33,699 bases of DNA from an uncultured Clostridia bacterium. GTDB lineage: Bacteria > Bacillota > Clostridia > Christensenellales > CAG-917. The stretch covers positions 1-33,699 of the forward strand of contig CALVTH010000016.1 in the NCBI GenBank assembly GCA_944360115.1, in the 5' to 3' direction. The position numbers and the translations under genes were made by a program. Below are positions 9,476 to 28,851 of the stretch, piece after piece (the stretch's first letter is position 1; the number at the start of each line of letters is the position of its first letter). Under the pieces are notes generated by a model. That model ran no database searches and was not told the origin of the DNA. It worked only from the letters and a program-made list of their open reading frames with translations.

Positions 9476-11227
9476 TCATTTTTTGTCGCCTTCGGGGGGA
9501 AGGTCGAGCTTGATGTGCACATCGGCAAGCTGCCTGTCCGTCACCTCGGACGGCGCGCCCATGAGCAGGTCGCGGGCGTTGCGGTCCATCGGGAAGGCTA
9601 TGACCTCGCGGATGTTGGGCTCGCCGAGTAACAGCATGACGATTCTGTCCACGCCGGGAGCGATACCCGCGTGCGGCGGCGCGCCGAACTTGAACGCGTT
9701 GTACAGCGCGGAGAACTTCTTCTCGATGACATCTTTTCCGTATCCGACGATTTCAAACGCCTTTTCCATAATGGCGGGCTCGTGGTTTCTCACCGCGCCG
9801 GAGGACAGTTCCACACCGTTGACGACGCTGTCGTACTGATAGGCGAGAATGTCGAGCGGATTCATGGTCTCCAGCGCTTCGAGACCGCCCTGCGGCATAC
9901 TGAACGGATTGTGACAGAAGGTGAGGTTGCCCTCGTCGTCGTATTCGTACATCGGGAAGTCGACAATCCAGCAGAAACGGTAGGCGTCCTTTTCGAGGAG
10001 GTCGAGACCCACGCCCAGTTCGGTGCGCACGAATCCCGCCTGCTTGTCGGCGCCGCTCTTCTCGGCGACGATTGCGACGAACGACCCCGCGCCGATCCCC
10101 AGTCTCTCTTTGAGGGCGTCGAGACGGTCTCCGACGAACTTGGAAATGCCGCCCACGGGCGCGCCGTTGTCGTCGAGACGGAACCAGTACATATTTTCGG
10201 CGCCGTTTAACTTGACCTTTTCGGTGAGCGCGTCGATAAACTTTCTCGTCTCGGAGAATTTCTCGACTGCGACGGCTTTGACGGTCTTATCCTCGGTGAA
10301 GAAAGGCGCGGCGCCCGTCATGATGTCCGTGATGTCCTTGATGATGAGCGGGTTCCTGAGGTCGGGCTTGTCGGTGCCGTAATCGCGCATTGCGTCGCGG
10401 TAACTTATCCTGCGGTAGGGCCCCTTGTCCACCTTCTTGTCGCTGAATGCGGTGAAGACCCCCGTCAGCACTTCTTCCATGACCGCGAAGACATCTTCCT
10501 GACCCGCGAAGCACATCTCGGTGTCCAGCTGATAGAATTCGCCGGGGCTTCTGTCCGCCCTCGCATCCTCGTCGCGGAAACAGGGGGCAATCTGGAAATA
10601 TCTGTCGAAGCCCGAGGTCATAAGCAGTTGCTTGTACTGTTGCGGGGCTTGCGGCAACGCGTAGAATTTGCCGGGGTGCAGTCTCGACGGCACGATGAAA
10701 TCGCGCGCGCCCTCGGGGGACGAGCCCGTGAGAATGGGGGTGGTGATTTCGAGGAAGCCCATTTCCGTCATCTTGTTGCGCAGCCAGCTGACGACCTTTG
10801 CGCGGAAGACGATTTTCTCCTTGACCTCGGGATTGCGCAGGTCGAGGAAACGGTAACGCAGGCGGGTGTCCTCGCGGGATTGCACGGACGCCGCCACCTC
10901 GAAAGGCAGCTGCTCGTAGCACCTGCCCAGCACCTCGATTGCCGAGGGCACGATTTCAATCATACCCGTGGGCATATCGGGGTTGGGAGAACTTCTCCTG
11001 ACCACTTCGCCCTCGACGGAGACCGTCGATTCGCGGGGAATGGAGCGCACGAGCGCCTTGGTCGCCTCGTCCGAAGCCACGCCCTGAGTCATACCGAAAA
11101 AGTCGCGGAGCACGAAGAAAACGACGGCGCCGAGGTCGCGTATTCCGGACAGCCAGCCCGCCACCTTGACCTTCTGCCCTATGTTGCTCTCGCGCAACTC
11201 TCCGCAGTTGTGAGTCCTGTAATTCAT
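9476..11227 (-). CDS. aspS: Aspartyl-tRNA synthetase
   Basis: Charges tRNA-Asp. 583 residues, the bacterial form with N-terminal OB anticodon-binding domain (about 1-110), class II catalytic core and the GAD-type insertion. Motif 2 appears as PCFRDEDARADRSPGEFYQ, motif 3 as GIAPGVDRIVMLLLGEPNIR. The OB domain has RDLG where the non-discriminating Pseudomonas enzyme has RDHG (His31), which fits an enzyme specific for tRNA-Asp, as expected with asnS in the same operon. The ATG follows GGAGG with a 6-nt gap. Last gene of asnS-asnA-aspS, 58 bp after asnA. Confidence 0.97.
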   Translation of the reverse strand: MNYRTHNCGELRESNIGQKVKVAGWLSGIRDLGAVVFFVLRDFFGMTQGVASDEATKALVRSIPRESTVSVEGEVVRRSSPNPDMPTGMIEIVPSAIEVLGRCYEQLPFEVAASVQSREDTRLRYRFLDLRNPEVKEKIVFRAKVVSWLRNKMTEMGFLEITTPILTGSSPEGARDFIVPSRLHPGKFYALPQAPQQYKQLLMTSGFDRYFQIAPCFRDEDARADRSPGEFYQLDTEMCFAGQEDVFAVMEEVLTGVFTAFSDKKVDKGPYRRISYRDAMRDYGTDKPDLRNPLIIKDITDIMTGAAPFFTEDKTVKAVAVEKFSETRKFIDALTEKVKLNGAENMYWFRLDDNGAPVGGISKFVGDRLDALKERLGIGAGSFVAIVAEKSGADKQAGFVRTELGVGLDLLEKDAYRFCWIVDFPMYEYDDEGNLTFCHNPFSMPQGGLEALETMNPLDILAYQYDSVVNGVELSSGAVRNHEPAIMEKAFEIVGYGKDVIEKKFSALYNAFKFGAPPHAGIAPGVDRIVMLLLGEPNIREVIAFPMDRNARDLLMGAPSEVTDRQLADVHIKLDLPPEGDKK

Positions 11228-15377: not shown

Positions 15378-15898
15378 ACTCTTTGCCCACCCTCGCGGCA
15401 GGTTGTTGTAGCGCTCTCTCACGCGAGCGTGCGTGACATAGGTAGGACTTTTCAGGTGCACTGCATGAAACGGGAAGTTGCTGTGCCTCCCTCCTTCACT
15501 TCGGGCTTTCTCGAAATACAAGAAAAAGTTGTTGCCCCCCTCCTGCGGGTTCCCCCCGCTACCGTACCCCCTTGAAAGGGCACCCACGGTTGCGGGCGGG
15601 CACCTTCGGCACTCGCGCACAGCCTGTTCCTCGTTGCCGCTCCGCGCGGCAACGAAGTTATGCCACTTGCGGCGCGCCCGCCTACGGCGAATTACAACGG
15701 CGCGCCGCTTGCGTACTTTACGTCCTGCGCTCGGCGCTCACACGGTCGCCGCCTGTTGCGGCTCCACCCTATCAAACAGACATCGTGCATAAGAACGCTC
15801 GCTCGGGGTGTTCGTTTGCCGCCTGTTGCGGTTCGCGCTCCGAACAGGCAAACGTTTAGAACGGGTGAAAATTATGTTCTTCTCTTTGCAAAGGACAG
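15378..15898. other. Hairpin-rich gene-poor region, possible interspersed repeat
   Basis: No gene I can support. It holds perfect or near-perfect inverted repeats at 15631-15640/15646-15655 (10 bp), 15669-15678/15699-15708 (10 bp) and 15813-15820/15847-15854 (8 bp), separated by Pro/Gly/Arg-rich frames in several registers. A 36-codon frame at 15465-15575 has an AGGTG six bases before its ATG (start MKREVAVPPS), the only small frame here with a plausible ribosome site. The composition recalls multi-copy intergenic repeats of gut Clostridia, but that can only be tested against a genome. Confidence 0.4.
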
Positions 15899-16589
15899 GA
15901 ACGTGTAAAAGCGCGATATTTCGATGAAGAACGCTCAGCACACCTCAAAATTCTGCTACGCAGAAATTTCGGGGACCCCTATGCCGCCCGAACAGACGGG
16001 AGCATACTTTTGCGTATGTGACTGTTTGCGAGGGCGTTTGTGTTGACGCTGTATCACGCCAAACAGCGCGGTTTGGATAAGGCGGACACCCTGTTTGTCA
16101 TCGGGGAAAAATGATAGAAACGCTTAAAACCTCGATATTCCGATGAAAAACGAGGAAGAGCCGCCCGAACAGACAGGAGTGTTCTTGTCGTATGTGACTG
16201 CTCGCGGGCGTTTGTGTTGACGCTGTATCACGCCAAACAGCGCGGTTTGGATAAGGCGGACACCCTGTTTGTCATCGGAAAAAAATGAAAGAAACGCTTA
16301 AAACCGCGATATTTCGATGAAGAACAAGGAAGAGCCGCCCGAACAGACAGGAGCGTACTCAGCGTACACGACTGTTTGCGAGGGCGGCTCTGACAAAGTT
16401 ATTCGCGGAATAGCGCGGAGAACATCGACAATCCTGCGTCTTCTCTCCCCCCACGGAAAGAAACGTGTAAAACCTCGATATTCCGATGAAGAACAAGGAA
16501 GAGCCGCCCGAACAGACAGGAGCGTACTTGTCGTACGTGACTGTTTGAGAGGGCGGCTCTGACAAAGTTATTCGCGGAATAGCGCGGTT
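15899..16589. repeat. Four-copy tandem array of hairpin-forming units abutting pyrB
   Basis: Units begin at about 15899, 16117, 16291 and 16460 (periods 218, 174, 169; last unit about 130 bp). Each starts with a form of GAAACG..TAAAA, then CGATATT and CGATGAAGAAC, then an inverted repeat. In units 3 and 4 the outer arms are perfect, AGAGCCGCCC/GGGCGGCTCT (16331-16340/16382-16391 and 16500-16509/16551-16560), with inner arms AACAG/CTGTT and an apical stem. The apical stem is GCATAC/GTATGT in unit 1 and GCGTAC/GTACGT in unit 4, a paired change that keeps pairing. Unit 1 has an extra hairpin of about 44 bp (near 15946-15970). Units 1 and 2 share a nearly identical segment of about 75 bp at 16037 and 16211. 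The array ends a base or two before the pyrB stop codon, so it lies in the pyr operon 3' region. Confidence 0.85.
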
Positions 16590-17699
16590 TTACTTGTAGT
16601 GACCGAAGCGCGTCTCACAATACTCGCACCTGTAGATGTTGTGCGCCTGGTCGCGGAGCGAGAATTGCTGGGGAAGGTCGGTCTCGACGGCGGTGACGCA
16701 CTTGGGGTTGTGGCAGACAAAACCGTCTGCGGCGGTGTAAATCTTGCGGGGATTGGGCTCGGGGCAATAGCCCTTCTCGGCGTCGGAAAGGAAACGGAGA
16801 ATGAGCGCCATGCGCATAAACTTGCCGTACTCCACCTGTTTGAAATAACAGGCACGGGGGTCGTCGTCGACATCGACATTGATTTCCTTGACGCGCGGCA
16901 GGGGGTGAAGCACGCTCATGTGCTCGGGAGCGGCTTTCATTTTCTCGGCGTTGAGCACATAGCAGTCCTTCAGGCGCTCGTACTCGTCGAGGTCCTGAAA
17001 ACGCTCGCGCTGTATGCGGGTCATATAAAGCACATCGAGGTCGGCAATGCAGTCTTCGATGTCGGTGCAATGACTCCACACCGCACCACGGGGCTCCATA
17101 ATTTCGTAGCGCACATAGTTGGGTATGGTGAGTTCGGGGGGCGATATCATAACGAAACGGTTGCCCTCGTAGCGAGTGAGCGCATTTATGAGGGAGTGCA
17201 CCGTTCTGCCGTATTTGAGGTCGCCGCAGATACCTATCGTGAGATGGTCGAGCCTGCCGTGACGGTCCTTGATGGTGAGCAGGTCTGCGAGGGTCTGCGT
17301 GGGGTGACAATGCCCGCCGTCGCCCGCGTTGATGACGGGCACAATGCTGCGGCGGGAAGCCGCAAGCGCGGCGCCTTCGAGAGGATGACGCATTGCGATG
17401 ATGTCGGCATAAGCGCTGACGGTGCGTATGGTGTCCATAACGCTCTCGCCTTTGGTGGTGGAGCTGTTGGACGCGGAGGCAAACCCGAGAGCTTTGCCGC
17501 CGAGTTCCATCATGGCAGCTTCGAAGGAAAGGCGGGTGCGGGTGGACGGCTCGAAAAAGAGGGTGGCAATCTTCTTGCCCTCGCAGGCGTGAGCGTACTT
17601 CGCACGGTCGCGCATTATGTCTTCGGCGACGGCAAGTATGCCGTCTATTTCTTCCGTCGTCAGGTCGGAAATGTCGATGAGATGTCTGATACCTTTCAT
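16590..17699 (-). CDS. pyrB: Aspartate carbamoyltransferase fused to a PyrI-type zinc domain
   Basis: Condenses carbamoyl phosphate with aspartate in UMP synthesis. The catalytic chain spans about 1-308, with carbamoyl-phosphate loop FEPSTRTRLSFE at 49-60, a HCHPTQTLAD segment at 130-139 and HPLPR at 265-269. The last 60 residues are extra: Cys 329, 334, 358 and 361 have exactly the 5/24/3 spacing of the zinc site in E. coli PyrI (109, 114, 138, 141), and surrounding residues also match. The PyrI nucleotide-binding domain is absent, so CTP/ATP control of the classical kind is not expected; the zinc domain may hold subunits together. The ATG at 17699 was chosen because the family sequence begins there; its ribosome site (AAAGGCAAG) is weak. 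Last gene of the pyr operon, 100 bp after pyrE. Confidence 0.95.
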   Translation of the reverse strand: MKGIRHLIDISDLTTEEIDGILAVAEDIMRDRAKYAHACEGKKIATLFFEPSTRTRLSFEAAMMELGGKALGFASASNSSTTKGESVMDTIRTVSAYADIIAMRHPLEGAALAASRRSIVPVINAGDGGHCHPTQTLADLLTIKDRHGRLDHLTIGICGDLKYGRTVHSLINALTRYEGNRFVMISPPELTIPNYVRYEIMEPRGAVWSHCTDIEDCIADLDVLYMTRIQRERFQDLDEYERLKDCYVLNAEKMKAAPEHMSVLHPLPRVKEINVDVDDDPRACYFKQVEYGKFMRMALILRFLSDAEKGYCPEPNPRKIYTAADGFVCHNPKCVTAVETDLPQQFSLRDQAHNIYRCEYCETRFGHYK

Positions 17700-17727
17700 A
17701 ATCAACTTGCCTTTGTCTGCCCGATTG

Positions 17728-17787
17728 CGCCGCAAAGCGGCGTTTGTTCGGTCGTTTTGAACATTGAAACCGCGATTTGCGCGGTTT
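17728..17787 (-). promoter_or_regulatory. Two hairpins in the pyrE-pyrB gap
   Basis: Inverted repeats AAACCGCG/CGCGGTTT (17767-17774/17780-17787) and CGCCGC/GCGGCG (17728-17733/17737-17742). Neither is followed by a T-run on the minus strand and no -10/-35 pair is visible, so they are not clear terminators or a promoter. They may tune pyrB expression relative to the genes upstream, or be processing or stability elements. Confidence 0.4.
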
Positions 17788-26901: not shown

Positions 26902-28851
26902 TTATTCGTCATCTCCCGAGGGAGCTTCGCCGAAGTATTCGCCTCCGCCGACCTCGTCGGCCGCGGGAGCCTCGTCGTCGTACGCGGGAGCCTCCTCATC
27001 GTACGCGGGAGTCTCCTCATCGTACACGGGAGTCTCCTCATCGTACACGGGAGCCGCGCCCGCCGCATCCGCCGCGGCGCCTGCCGTTTCGGTTGCGGGT
27101 TCGAGAGCCGCCGCCGCTTCCTCGGCGTCCTTCTTGATGCGGAGTTTGAACTCACGGCAACAGCTTGCCGCAAACACCGTCACAAGCGCGATTGCGCCGA
27201 CGATATACAGCCAGTTGCGCAGCGACATCACGGAGATGACCGCGCACAGCAGATTGTTGGACTGCAGCCATGTCATATCCTGATAGCCGAGCACGCCGTA
27301 GGTGACGCTCATCGGGAAGATGTTGATTTCGAGCAGACCGCTGTCGTTGATGCAAAGTCCGAGAGAGAGAGGTCTGCCACCGGTGGCGTCGTAAAGCACA
27401 TTCCCGAGACCGTCGAGCAGTCCTTCCACGATGCTGACATCGCCGACCTTGATTTCGGCAAGCAAGGGCACAAGGGTGTTGAGCGCGCCGTTGAGCAGTC
27501 CCGACATATCCAGCGAAGTGACCGCCATCGTCTTGCCGTCCATGTCGAGTATGCCCCACTTCATGGGCTGGCTGACATAGCCGCCTATGAGTTCGTCGCT
27601 GTCGTTGTAGCACGGCACGACGACGGCGCCCGCAAGCACTCTGGACACCTCGTTGTCTTCATAGAAGGCGGGGTTGACATAATAGGTGTTCTCGTAGTTG
27701 TTGACCTTGACGAGCGCATGGGAATAGTCGTTGAACAGTTCCTTGACGGCGTCCGCCATATACAGCTCGTAGTACATCGAAGTTATCGCCTCGACCTTCT
27801 GGCCGTCGACGGTGGCTTCGTAGGTGGGATAAATGAGGTTGTTGTTCTCGTCGAGCACCGCACGGGAGTCTTCGGAGAAGTCGCTGCTCTGGTCGAGTAT
27901 GAGTCGGAGCACGACGGGCACCGTCATTCTGCCCGAGGACTGAGCGTAGAGGATAAGGCTGTCGTCGTAGGTGACATAGCCGTCGTTGTGCATACTCGCA
28001 TAGTTCTTGTTGAACAGATACGAGATACGCTCGTTGCTCATGCCTTCCTGCGCGAGTTTGGTGTAGGTGTTCAGCGTGGCTTTGGAGACCGCAAGACCGA
28101 CCGCCAGACGCTCGATGTTGCCGATGGAACTGCCCGCCGTAGGCGAGTTGAGCATATAAGCGGGGTCACGCATAACCCAGCTGGTGTACACGAATTCGAA
28201 GTACTCCTGCTGCAGTTCGGGCAAGCCCGCGATGAGCGCGTCGTATTTCTCCTGCTGCACGGCGGAGTCGGAGTTGCTTATGATCTGTTCCAGCTGATTG
28301 AGGTAGCTGGAGTTGTAGGTGAACATATCCGAGCCGAAGGTGTCCGTCTGCGATACCAGCGTTTCGTATGCGTAGTCGGCTGAATAGTTGCCGTTGGCGA
28401 TGTTGTACATCACGAATCTGCGCACGAGGAAGGCGTTGGTCTCGGCCTGTTCTTCGTAGTTGTTCTCGAGGTCTTCTACCTTGAGGGTACCGGATGTCAG
28501 CGAGGACAGGATGTCGGGGAGCACCACATCGACGAGCGCGCCCACGAGGAAGGTGAGACACACAACCGTCACGATGAGGGCTATCGTCTGCCGTCTGATT
28601 GTCTTGCGGGACTTCTTGCGGGTGACGCAGAGCAGCACGATGAAGAACACCAGACACAGCACGCCGGCGAGAATCACGCCGACAAAGGGCCAGAAGGTGT
28701 AGTAAGGCACCATCTGATAGAACTGCACGGAGAACACCGCGGTGAGCACCACCAGCATGGGCATACCCACAAGATAGAGGAACACTTCCAACAGGGTGAG
28801 GCCTGCGACTTTTCTGTTGACGGATTTCCTGATGTCGTTAGTCATAGTCAC
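26902..28851 (-). CDS. Membrane-anchored protein with large extracytoplasmic domain and YDEE-repeat tail, unknown
   Basis: 649 residues, no family recognised. Three N-terminal membrane segments (about 18-44, 52-77, 88-112), a region of about 430 residues likely outside the cell, a fourth segment (about 546-563) and an 84-residue acidic cytoplasmic-type tail with four 7-residue repeats of the form P-V/A-Y-D-E/D-E-T/A (601-628). The N-terminal part resembles that of the upstream gene: VN.K at the start, Y..G.P..V in segment 1, and D-hydrophobic-VLP after segment 3, so the two look like distant paralogues. Start: GTG at 28851 overlaps the upstream stop (GTGA) with AGGAGG 4 bases before; an ATG at 28845 is the alternative. 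Function unknown; an envelope role is a guess. Confidence 0.75.
   Translation of the reverse strand: MTMTNDIRKSVNRKVAGLTLLEVFLYLVGMPMLVVLTAVFSVQFYQMVPYYTFWPFVGVILAGVLCLVFFIVLLCVTRKKSRKTIRRQTIALIVTVVCLTFLVGALVDVVLPDILSSLTSGTLKVEDLENNYEEQAETNAFLVRRFVMYNIANGNYSADYAYETLVSQTDTFGSDMFTYNSSYLNQLEQIISNSDSAVQQEKYDALIAGLPELQQEYFEFVYTSWVMRDPAYMLNSPTAGSSIGNIERLAVGLAVSKATLNTYTKLAQEGMSNERISYLFNKNYASMHNDGYVTYDDSLILYAQSSGRMTVPVVLRLILDQSSDFSEDSRAVLDENNNLIYPTYEATVDGQKVEAITSMYYELYMADAVKELFNDYSHALVKVNNYENTYYVNPAFYEDNEVSRVLAGAVVVPCYNDSDELIGGYVSQPMKWGILDMDGKTMAVTSLDMSGLLNGALNTLVPLLAEIKVGDVSIVEGLLDGLGNVLYDATGGRPLSLGLCINDSGLLEINIFPMSVTYGVLGYQDMTWLQSNNLLCAVISVMSLRNWLYIVGAIALVTVFAASCCREFKLRIKKDAEEAAAALEPATETAGAAADAAGAAPVYDEETPVYDEETPAYDEEAPAYDDEAPAADEVGGGEYFGEAPSGDDE
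26968..27051 (-). repeat. Four 21-bp coding tandem repeats
   Basis: Encode the P-V/A-Y-D-E/D-E-T/A heptads in the tail of the overlapping membrane protein. Copies 1 and 2 encode VYDEET and copies 3 and 4 AYDEEA or AYDDEA. Near-identity suggests recent expansion and possible copy-number variation. Confidence 0.85.

Follow-up and report, generated by a model that had tools for sequence, protein, structure and literature searches.

A tandem array of hairpin units follows pyrB

The window, as we call the whole 33,699-nt stretch of DNA analysed here, contains a pyr cluster whose last gene is pyrB. This gene (16590–17735, minus strand) encodes an aspartate carbamoyltransferase (Pfam OTCace_N and OTCace) fused to the PyrI metal-binding domain (PyrI_C), the zinc-binding domain of the regulatory chain. 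Behind it, positions 15899–16592 comprise four units in a single orientation, at spacings of 219, 174 and 169 bp. An earlier, sequence-only reading of this DNA had described four tandem hairpin units that abut the pyrB stop codon and end at 16589. Four units are present, but the right end of the array is 16592, and positions 16590–16592 are the pyrB stop codon itself (TAA, minus strand), which provides the first three bases of the sense-5' arm of unit 4; pyrB of the congener G007 is arranged likewise. As had been noted, the pyr operon mRNA (minus strand) runs directly into the units, which follow pyrB in sense.

Unit 4 (16468–16592, minus strand) is a complete hairpin element that scores 141.8 bits in a cmsearch with the covariance model R1 (see below) and folds as DNA with a z-score of -9.3. 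In the sense of the pyr operon its outer-arm ends are TAAAACC (16468) and GGTTTTA (16592), and its apical core ACAGGAGCGTACTTGTCGTACGTGACTG (16516–16543, plus strand), an exact match to the core pattern, contains tandem G.A mismatches. Unit 3 (16297–16418, minus strand; 119.6 bits, z -3.9) has partly lost its outermost arm. Unit 2 (16123–16258, minus strand; 57.1 bits) combines a left half of its own subfamily with a right half of the ...GCGGGCGTTTGTGTTGACGC... subfamily, and unit 1 (15904–16072, minus strand) is a degenerate chimera interrupted at about 15933–15982, of which R1 recovers only the core (39 bits, 15987–16036). The model places the other three at 16458–16600, 16289–16431 and 16115–16258. 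Units 1 and 2 look like chimeras because their right halves match a different subfamily, found in an array at the start of contig C1; unit 2 and that array are 89.7% identical over 126 columns. Only units 3 and 4 fold as whole hairpins, the DNA z-scores of units 2 and 1 being -2.4 and -1.2, the latter not beyond chance.

Units 3 and 4 have perfect outer arms, AGAGCCGCCC/GGGCGGCTCT, in agreement with the first description. A compensatory change in the apical stem had also been proposed. Unit 1 indeed has GCATAC/GTATGT and unit 4 has GCGTAC/GTACGT, but units 2 (GTGTTC/GTATGT) and 3 (GCGTAC/GTACAC) are mismatched. Compensatory change is strong across genomes, and not in the array alone, in which pairing is unconserved in units 1–2. 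A coding function for the 81-aa ORF that spans units 3–4 was set aside, as the repeats diverge as hairpins and not as codons.

The surroundings of the array are repetitive as well. The piece of about 50 bp (CTCAGCACACCTCAAAATTCTGC...GGGGACCCCTAT) that interrupts unit 1 at 15933–15982 also interrupts elements on contigs C1 and C34 (L012/L017, L019) and forms a smaller dispersed repeat in its own right, lodged within the first. Two copies of a CGCCTGTTGCGGCTC-type repeat lie at 15743–15834; at L015 and L018, on other contigs, repeats of this type likewise adjoin elements. All of 15.5–16.6 kb is a repeat island. Elsewhere in the window, a 21-bp tandem repeat (4.5 copies, 93% matches) lies within a long ORF at 26962–27055, and shorter tandem repeats occur at 2310–2431 and 10467–10518.

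The units belong to a dispersed family of hairpins

The pyrB repeats are local members of a dispersed hairpin family. A blastn search with unit 4 found 23 places in its own genome (1.49 Mb), 19 of them with E < 1e-4 and many at contig ends. The core pattern ACAGGAGYRTACT-N1-8-CGTAYRYGACTG had 13 exact matches in this genome, compared with none for the reversed control. Across GTDB, with one genome per species, the exact core occurred 83 times in 79 stretches. The genomes that carry it are mostly Clostridia, Christensenellaceae bins, Candidatus Limadaptatus and Candidatus Alloclostridium, and it was also found in bins labelled Lentisphaerae, Sumerlaeia, Alistipes and Selenomonadales; as phylum rests on the labels of metagenome-assembled genomes (MAGs), mis-binning may account for copies in other phyla.

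The covariance model R1, for which 23 Clostridial copies were used, detected 25 copies in the genome of the window. Among nine congeners the numbers ranged widely (G001, 75; G009, 70; G008, 65; G004, 52; G005, 39; G003, 33; G007, 26; G006, 1; G002, 0). Order-wide, 65 of 248 genomes and 25 of 115 genera had matches (E ≤ 1e-6; 12 candidates scored per genome), as did all 24 genome handles picked for carrying the core, three of which are duplicates (G016=G136, G022=G140, G046=G131). Many contig ends of the source genome lie in elements (C1, C28, C29, C33, C42), and because assemblies break at elements, copy numbers in MAGs are underestimates. The sequence-only reading had thought of a REP/MITE-like repeat and had reasoned that units found nowhere else, with no conserved pairing in relatives, would speak for chance local duplication; the units are clearly dispersed and show compensatory change across genomes.

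No exact core was found in viral contigs, and blastn returned no match to plasmids or phages. These empty searches led us to reject a virus, phage or plasmid as the vehicle. A limited search of the open-access literature yielded no matching description, and the family seems to be previously undescribed.

The element is a single imperfect hairpin that folds best on the template strand

Each unit is a single imperfect hairpin of about 120 nt whose stems covary freely. Folds of 26 of the 95 distinct elements share one design, in which a long imperfect stem, broken by internal loops every ~10 pairs, is topped by a conserved apex, CAG-[GA]-GYRTAC / GTAYRY-[GA]-CTG, with tandem G.A mismatches. Covariation was measured in A1, a MAFFT alignment of 23 of 91 distinct sequences, all of one Clostridial type, with the structure derived from the same alignment. 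In it, 96.5% of cells were paired, compared with 82.1% after shuffling, and the covariation score was 0.421 versus 0.164 in shuffled and 0.055–0.099 in slid alignments. Changes on both sides of the stem were present in 24 of 43 pairs, and the changed cells comprised 152 two-sided and 9 one-sided cases. Helices in RNA usually change via G-U intermediates. The excess of two-sided over one-sided changes therefore makes it more likely that a duplex is kept at the DNA level, and the pairing looks more like that of a DNA duplex than of an RNA, a comparison that has no matched control (a TPP riboswitch alignment from the same genus, intended as the RNA control for wobble rarity, was too conserved for use).

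The two strands of the element are not equivalent. The template strand of the upstream gene, which carries ACAGGAG, is the more stable of the two in 88 of 92 elements by DNA parameters and in 90 of 92 by RNA parameters, while the difference in stability averaged zero in 270 control windows. The conserved mismatches are G.A and G.T on the template strand and C.T and C.A on the other. The best-folding, template (bottom) strand is held by conserved G.A and G.T mismatches. Template switching between the arms of an inverted repeat homogenises them, according to a published account (PMC8604942), and such homogenisation, rather than selection, could explain part of the arm covariation. The conserved mismatches, however, should have been erased by it as well, yet they persist.

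Two variants of the hairpin were also observed. A second apical class, GACCGCTTATGTAC...GTACACYGCGCG in sense, sits on the same outer arms and is often in tandem with the first (G007, L060, L100, L102). At L020 (C3, about 51266–51343) the apical hairpin has the orientation opposite to that of the outer arms, as though it had been turned over within the stem.

Elements are anchored in one direction on stop codons

The position of 95 distinct elements relative to genes was determined from the distance between the core and the stop codon of the longest ORF of at least 90 codons within 200 nt; distances were taken from the core or from model ends, because ends defined by folding over-extend. On the sense-5' side an ORF stop was found in 71 of the 95 elements, and in 43 it fell 42–54 nt from the core, which corresponds to the outer end of the hairpin. 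The opposite side had an ORF stop in 26 elements, with only four at 42–54 nt (43/95 versus 4/95, Fisher p 1.5e-11). Model-found copies within the genus gave the same picture: in 29 of the 30 R1 loci (L141 was left out), 19 stops lay at match offset 8–10, the first paired bases, and none of the 29 did so on the other side.

Subfamilies with different arms all begin with a stop codon (TAAAACC, TAAACGG, TGACGGC, TGAGGGC and TAAGCGC), and in the Lentisphaerae copies the stop codon is immediately outside the stem. Behind efp, three species have an element at a common site, with the arms GTTTAAGCGC, GGTTTAAGCGC and GTCTGAGGGC and matching complements, which indicates a switch of the stop from TAA to TGA with a corresponding change in the stem. 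The elements are thus dispersed, structured, asymmetric between strands and polar with respect to stop codons.

Near-identical copies lie behind unrelated genes

Unit 4 shares 97.8% identity with a copy that follows a peptidase-like gene (C28:13–149), and the homology ends within 3 bases of the stop. The dimer of units 3 and 4, linker included, has a counterpart of 94.7% identity at the end of C28, where it follows a gene read as hisIE. Among the copies behind pyrB, the hisIE-read gene and the peptidase-like gene, the boundary of homology is at most 3 bases from the stop codon.

Comparison of pyrB itself across congeners revealed different element subfamilies at the same codon in G000 and G007. 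The element of G004 and G009 is displaced a few codons into the gene, its arm encoding the last residues of the protein (KKGTI), and in G002, G005 and G006 there is no element. This pattern is best read as repeated gain. From the near-identical copies behind unrelated genes and the patchy presence we infer mobility by copying; no transposase linked to the element was found. At a separate set of loci (L126–L130, L132), the single Y1 (RAYT-like) gene of congeners stands beside an AMP-dependent ligase gene and has its own GGGACGGG-type inverted repeats; the ligase gene of the source genome ends in an element instead (L010).

Within one genus, elements and canonical terminators exclude each other

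The ends of pyrB and of eight further genes, all chosen because they carry elements in the source genome, were read in G002, G004, G006 and G007. Of 21 orthologous ends free of the element, 16 had a canonical intrinsic terminator within 200 nt, as scored by script. Among 15 element-bearing ends, four of them from the source genome, two had a terminator, both inside the element, and none had one beyond it (16/21 versus 0/15, p 3e-6). Five ends of the source genome (L010, L011, L019, L020 and L021) were not counted because they lay at contig ends, had an inverted core or had been assigned the wrong ORF. L208 was scored as terminator-less after the script picked the wrong ORF, its true end having a terminator-like hairpin. 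Within this one genus, element and canonical terminators are mutually exclusive, and the element apparently stands where an ordinary terminator would otherwise be. The difference was not significant in the wide cross-phylum set, with terminators behind 2 of 25 elements and 70 of 424 other gene ends (p 0.40), the latter excluding ends with a possible divergent GTAC...GTAC hairpin.

By rule, none of the 25 elements in this wide set qualified as an intrinsic terminator itself: none had at least 6 T in 8 positions, and three had at least 4. In the orthologue set 2 of 15 did so. In Clostridial copies the GC-rich stem of the sense strand is followed by a short T-rich stretch, CTTTTTCGCG or CTTTCCTTG, which other families lack, and two weak terminator-like sites in units 3 and 4 are no more than regional chance. 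The suggestion that the units, with their T-rich stretch, may end the pyr transcript needs to be modified: the stretch is too weak for a canonical intrinsic terminator, but the replacement of canonical terminators in orthologous genes fits such a role. Judging from the orthologue comparison, the element most likely ends or protects the transcript at gene 3' ends, a predicted function.

Relation to known repeats

The nearest known kind is the REP element. One study (PMC3733652) places REPs downstream of genes and reports that GTAG REPs often provide TAG stops. Like the REP/REPIN/BIME repeats (GTAG and CGTC families, RAYT-associated), which are dispersed, palindromic, mostly downstream of genes and sometimes clustered, the hairpins are high-copy, dispersed extragenic palindromes downstream of genes, with 25–75 copies per carrying genome. 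They differ in being single hairpins of about 120 nt with variable ends, where REPs measure 20–40 bp; in having no GTAG or CGTC tag in their conserved columns; in an outer-arm stop that is TAA or TGA; in having no linked RAYT; and in a conserved apical core common to several phyla.

Bacterial MITEs and intergenic repeat units are alike in size, in being non-coding and intergenic, and in sometimes encoding protein ends; RU-1, RU-2 and RU-3 are described in this way, at ~100–170 bp, in PMC2759123. In contrast to these, the element seems to have no fixed terminal inverted repeat, its arms being inverted repeats that vary by subfamily, and it is strictly one-way relative to the stop codon; no parent IS was found for it. 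Among spreading repeats with a terminator function, the neisserial DNA uptake sequence comes nearest; paired as inverted repeats, it doubles as a rho-independent terminator (PMC2397512). Those sequences are 10–12-mers for DNA uptake, whereas the element is a long hairpin without a canonical terminator tail. Rfam gave no match over the gathering score in the whole window and only chance-level matches to the repeat (E ≥ 1.3), so that membership in an Rfam family was rejected.

Integron attC sites form an imperfect hairpin on the bottom strand directly after an ORF and have R''/R' boxes, RYYYAAC / GTTRRRY, at their ends. The outer arms of the element, which by subfamily are TAAAACC, TGACGGC, TGAGGGC and TAAACGG, do not conform to these boxes. 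In 26 genomes, moreover, no integron integrase passed the cut-off, and the element lies behind scattered housekeeping genes. By the tests made, the element is neither a REP/RAYT system nor an integron attC site.

Discussion

Several explanations have to be weighed against each other. The position of the elements and their exclusion with canonical terminators would fit lineage-specific intrinsic or hairpin-cluster terminators that are not mobile, that arose by local duplication and gene conversion and that owe their place at the stop to selection alone. So would the Clostridial sense strand, with CTTTTTCGCG or CTTTCCTTG after its GC-rich stem, and the shared efp site, where TAA became TGA with a compensated arm. 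We consider this unlikely in view of the near-identical copies and copied dimers behind unrelated genes, the genome-wide absence of the element from G002 and its near absence from G006, the lack of a canonical T tract by rule, and a 27-nt core common to several phyla that would be superfluous for a terminator. Strong conservation of pairs and a location within the transcript of the upstream gene are also what a structured 3' UTR RNA would have, be it a stability element, a processing site or a protein-binding RNA. Such an RNA is difficult to reconcile with the better folding of the antisense strand (90/92), with conserved mismatches that turn into C.A, C.T and U.C in the sense RNA, with the near absence of wobble intermediates (9 one-sided versus 152 two-sided cells) and with the absence of an Rfam family at threshold, which makes it improbable.

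Both remaining alternatives name a mobilising enzyme. For a true REP/REPIN moved by a RAYT (Y1) transposase, the distribution within the genus is suggestive at first sight, with Y1_Tnp genes in six of eight element-rich congeners and neither of two element-poor ones. The source genome and G007, however, have no Y1_Tnp and 25–26 elements each, recent copies included; the domain exceeded its cut-off in only 5 of 25 distinct genomes searched; an element lies within 1.5 kb of a Y1 gene at 1 of 15 loci; and the RAYT loci of the genus have a different, GGGACGGG-type repeat (read from translations). We consider this explanation very improbable and, on account of the missing Y1_Tnp in those two genomes and the single nearby element, have dropped RAYT as the mobiliser. 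Solitary attC-like sites that serve an integron or another tyrosine recombinase as substrates deserve even less credence. No integron integrase exceeded the TIGR02249 cut-off in 26 genomes, for which reason an integron origin was dropped. The outer arms vary freely and lack the RYYYAAC/GTTRRRY boxes, and the genes involved are scattered housekeeping genes and not cassette arrays. What the element and attC sites have in common is the outline of their anatomy, namely an imperfect hairpin right after the stop, a bottom strand that folds and mismatches at fixed places.

On the best reading, the element is a mobile, REP-like hairpin that settles at the 3' ends of genes and takes over the end of the transcript. 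We think it somewhat more probable than not that these are short, non-coding, dispersed hairpins that multiply in bacterial genomes, sit one-way on stop codons and likely end or protect the transcript. As a kind, they are dispersed palindromic repeats; they stand out for their anchoring on stop codons, for the core found across phyla and for the apparent takeover of the terminator position. Strand asymmetry, conservation of the core and the patterns of copies suggest that a putative enzyme would recognise the single-stranded hairpin of the template strand by its apical core and copy it to other gene ends. Copying may prefer stop codons, or copies may survive best there. With the stop codon within the outermost pairs of the hairpin, the element would provide the translational stop as well as the 3' end of the message. 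Once inserted, it would serve as that 3' end and the old terminator could be lost, a step to which the orthologue comparison points. A wider version, in which selfish single-stranded DNA hairpins of several phyla target the stop codon, insert one way and displace the terminator until their hosts depend on them for message ends, is possible, and we offer it tentatively.

If this reading is true, a mobile repeat would have repeatedly taken over the ending of genes across an order of gut Clostridia, by way of their stop codons. G002 and G006, set against eight congeners, would then form a natural series in which the replacement of terminators may be read gene by gene, and the recognisable core of the hairpin permits a search for the enzyme that mobilises it.
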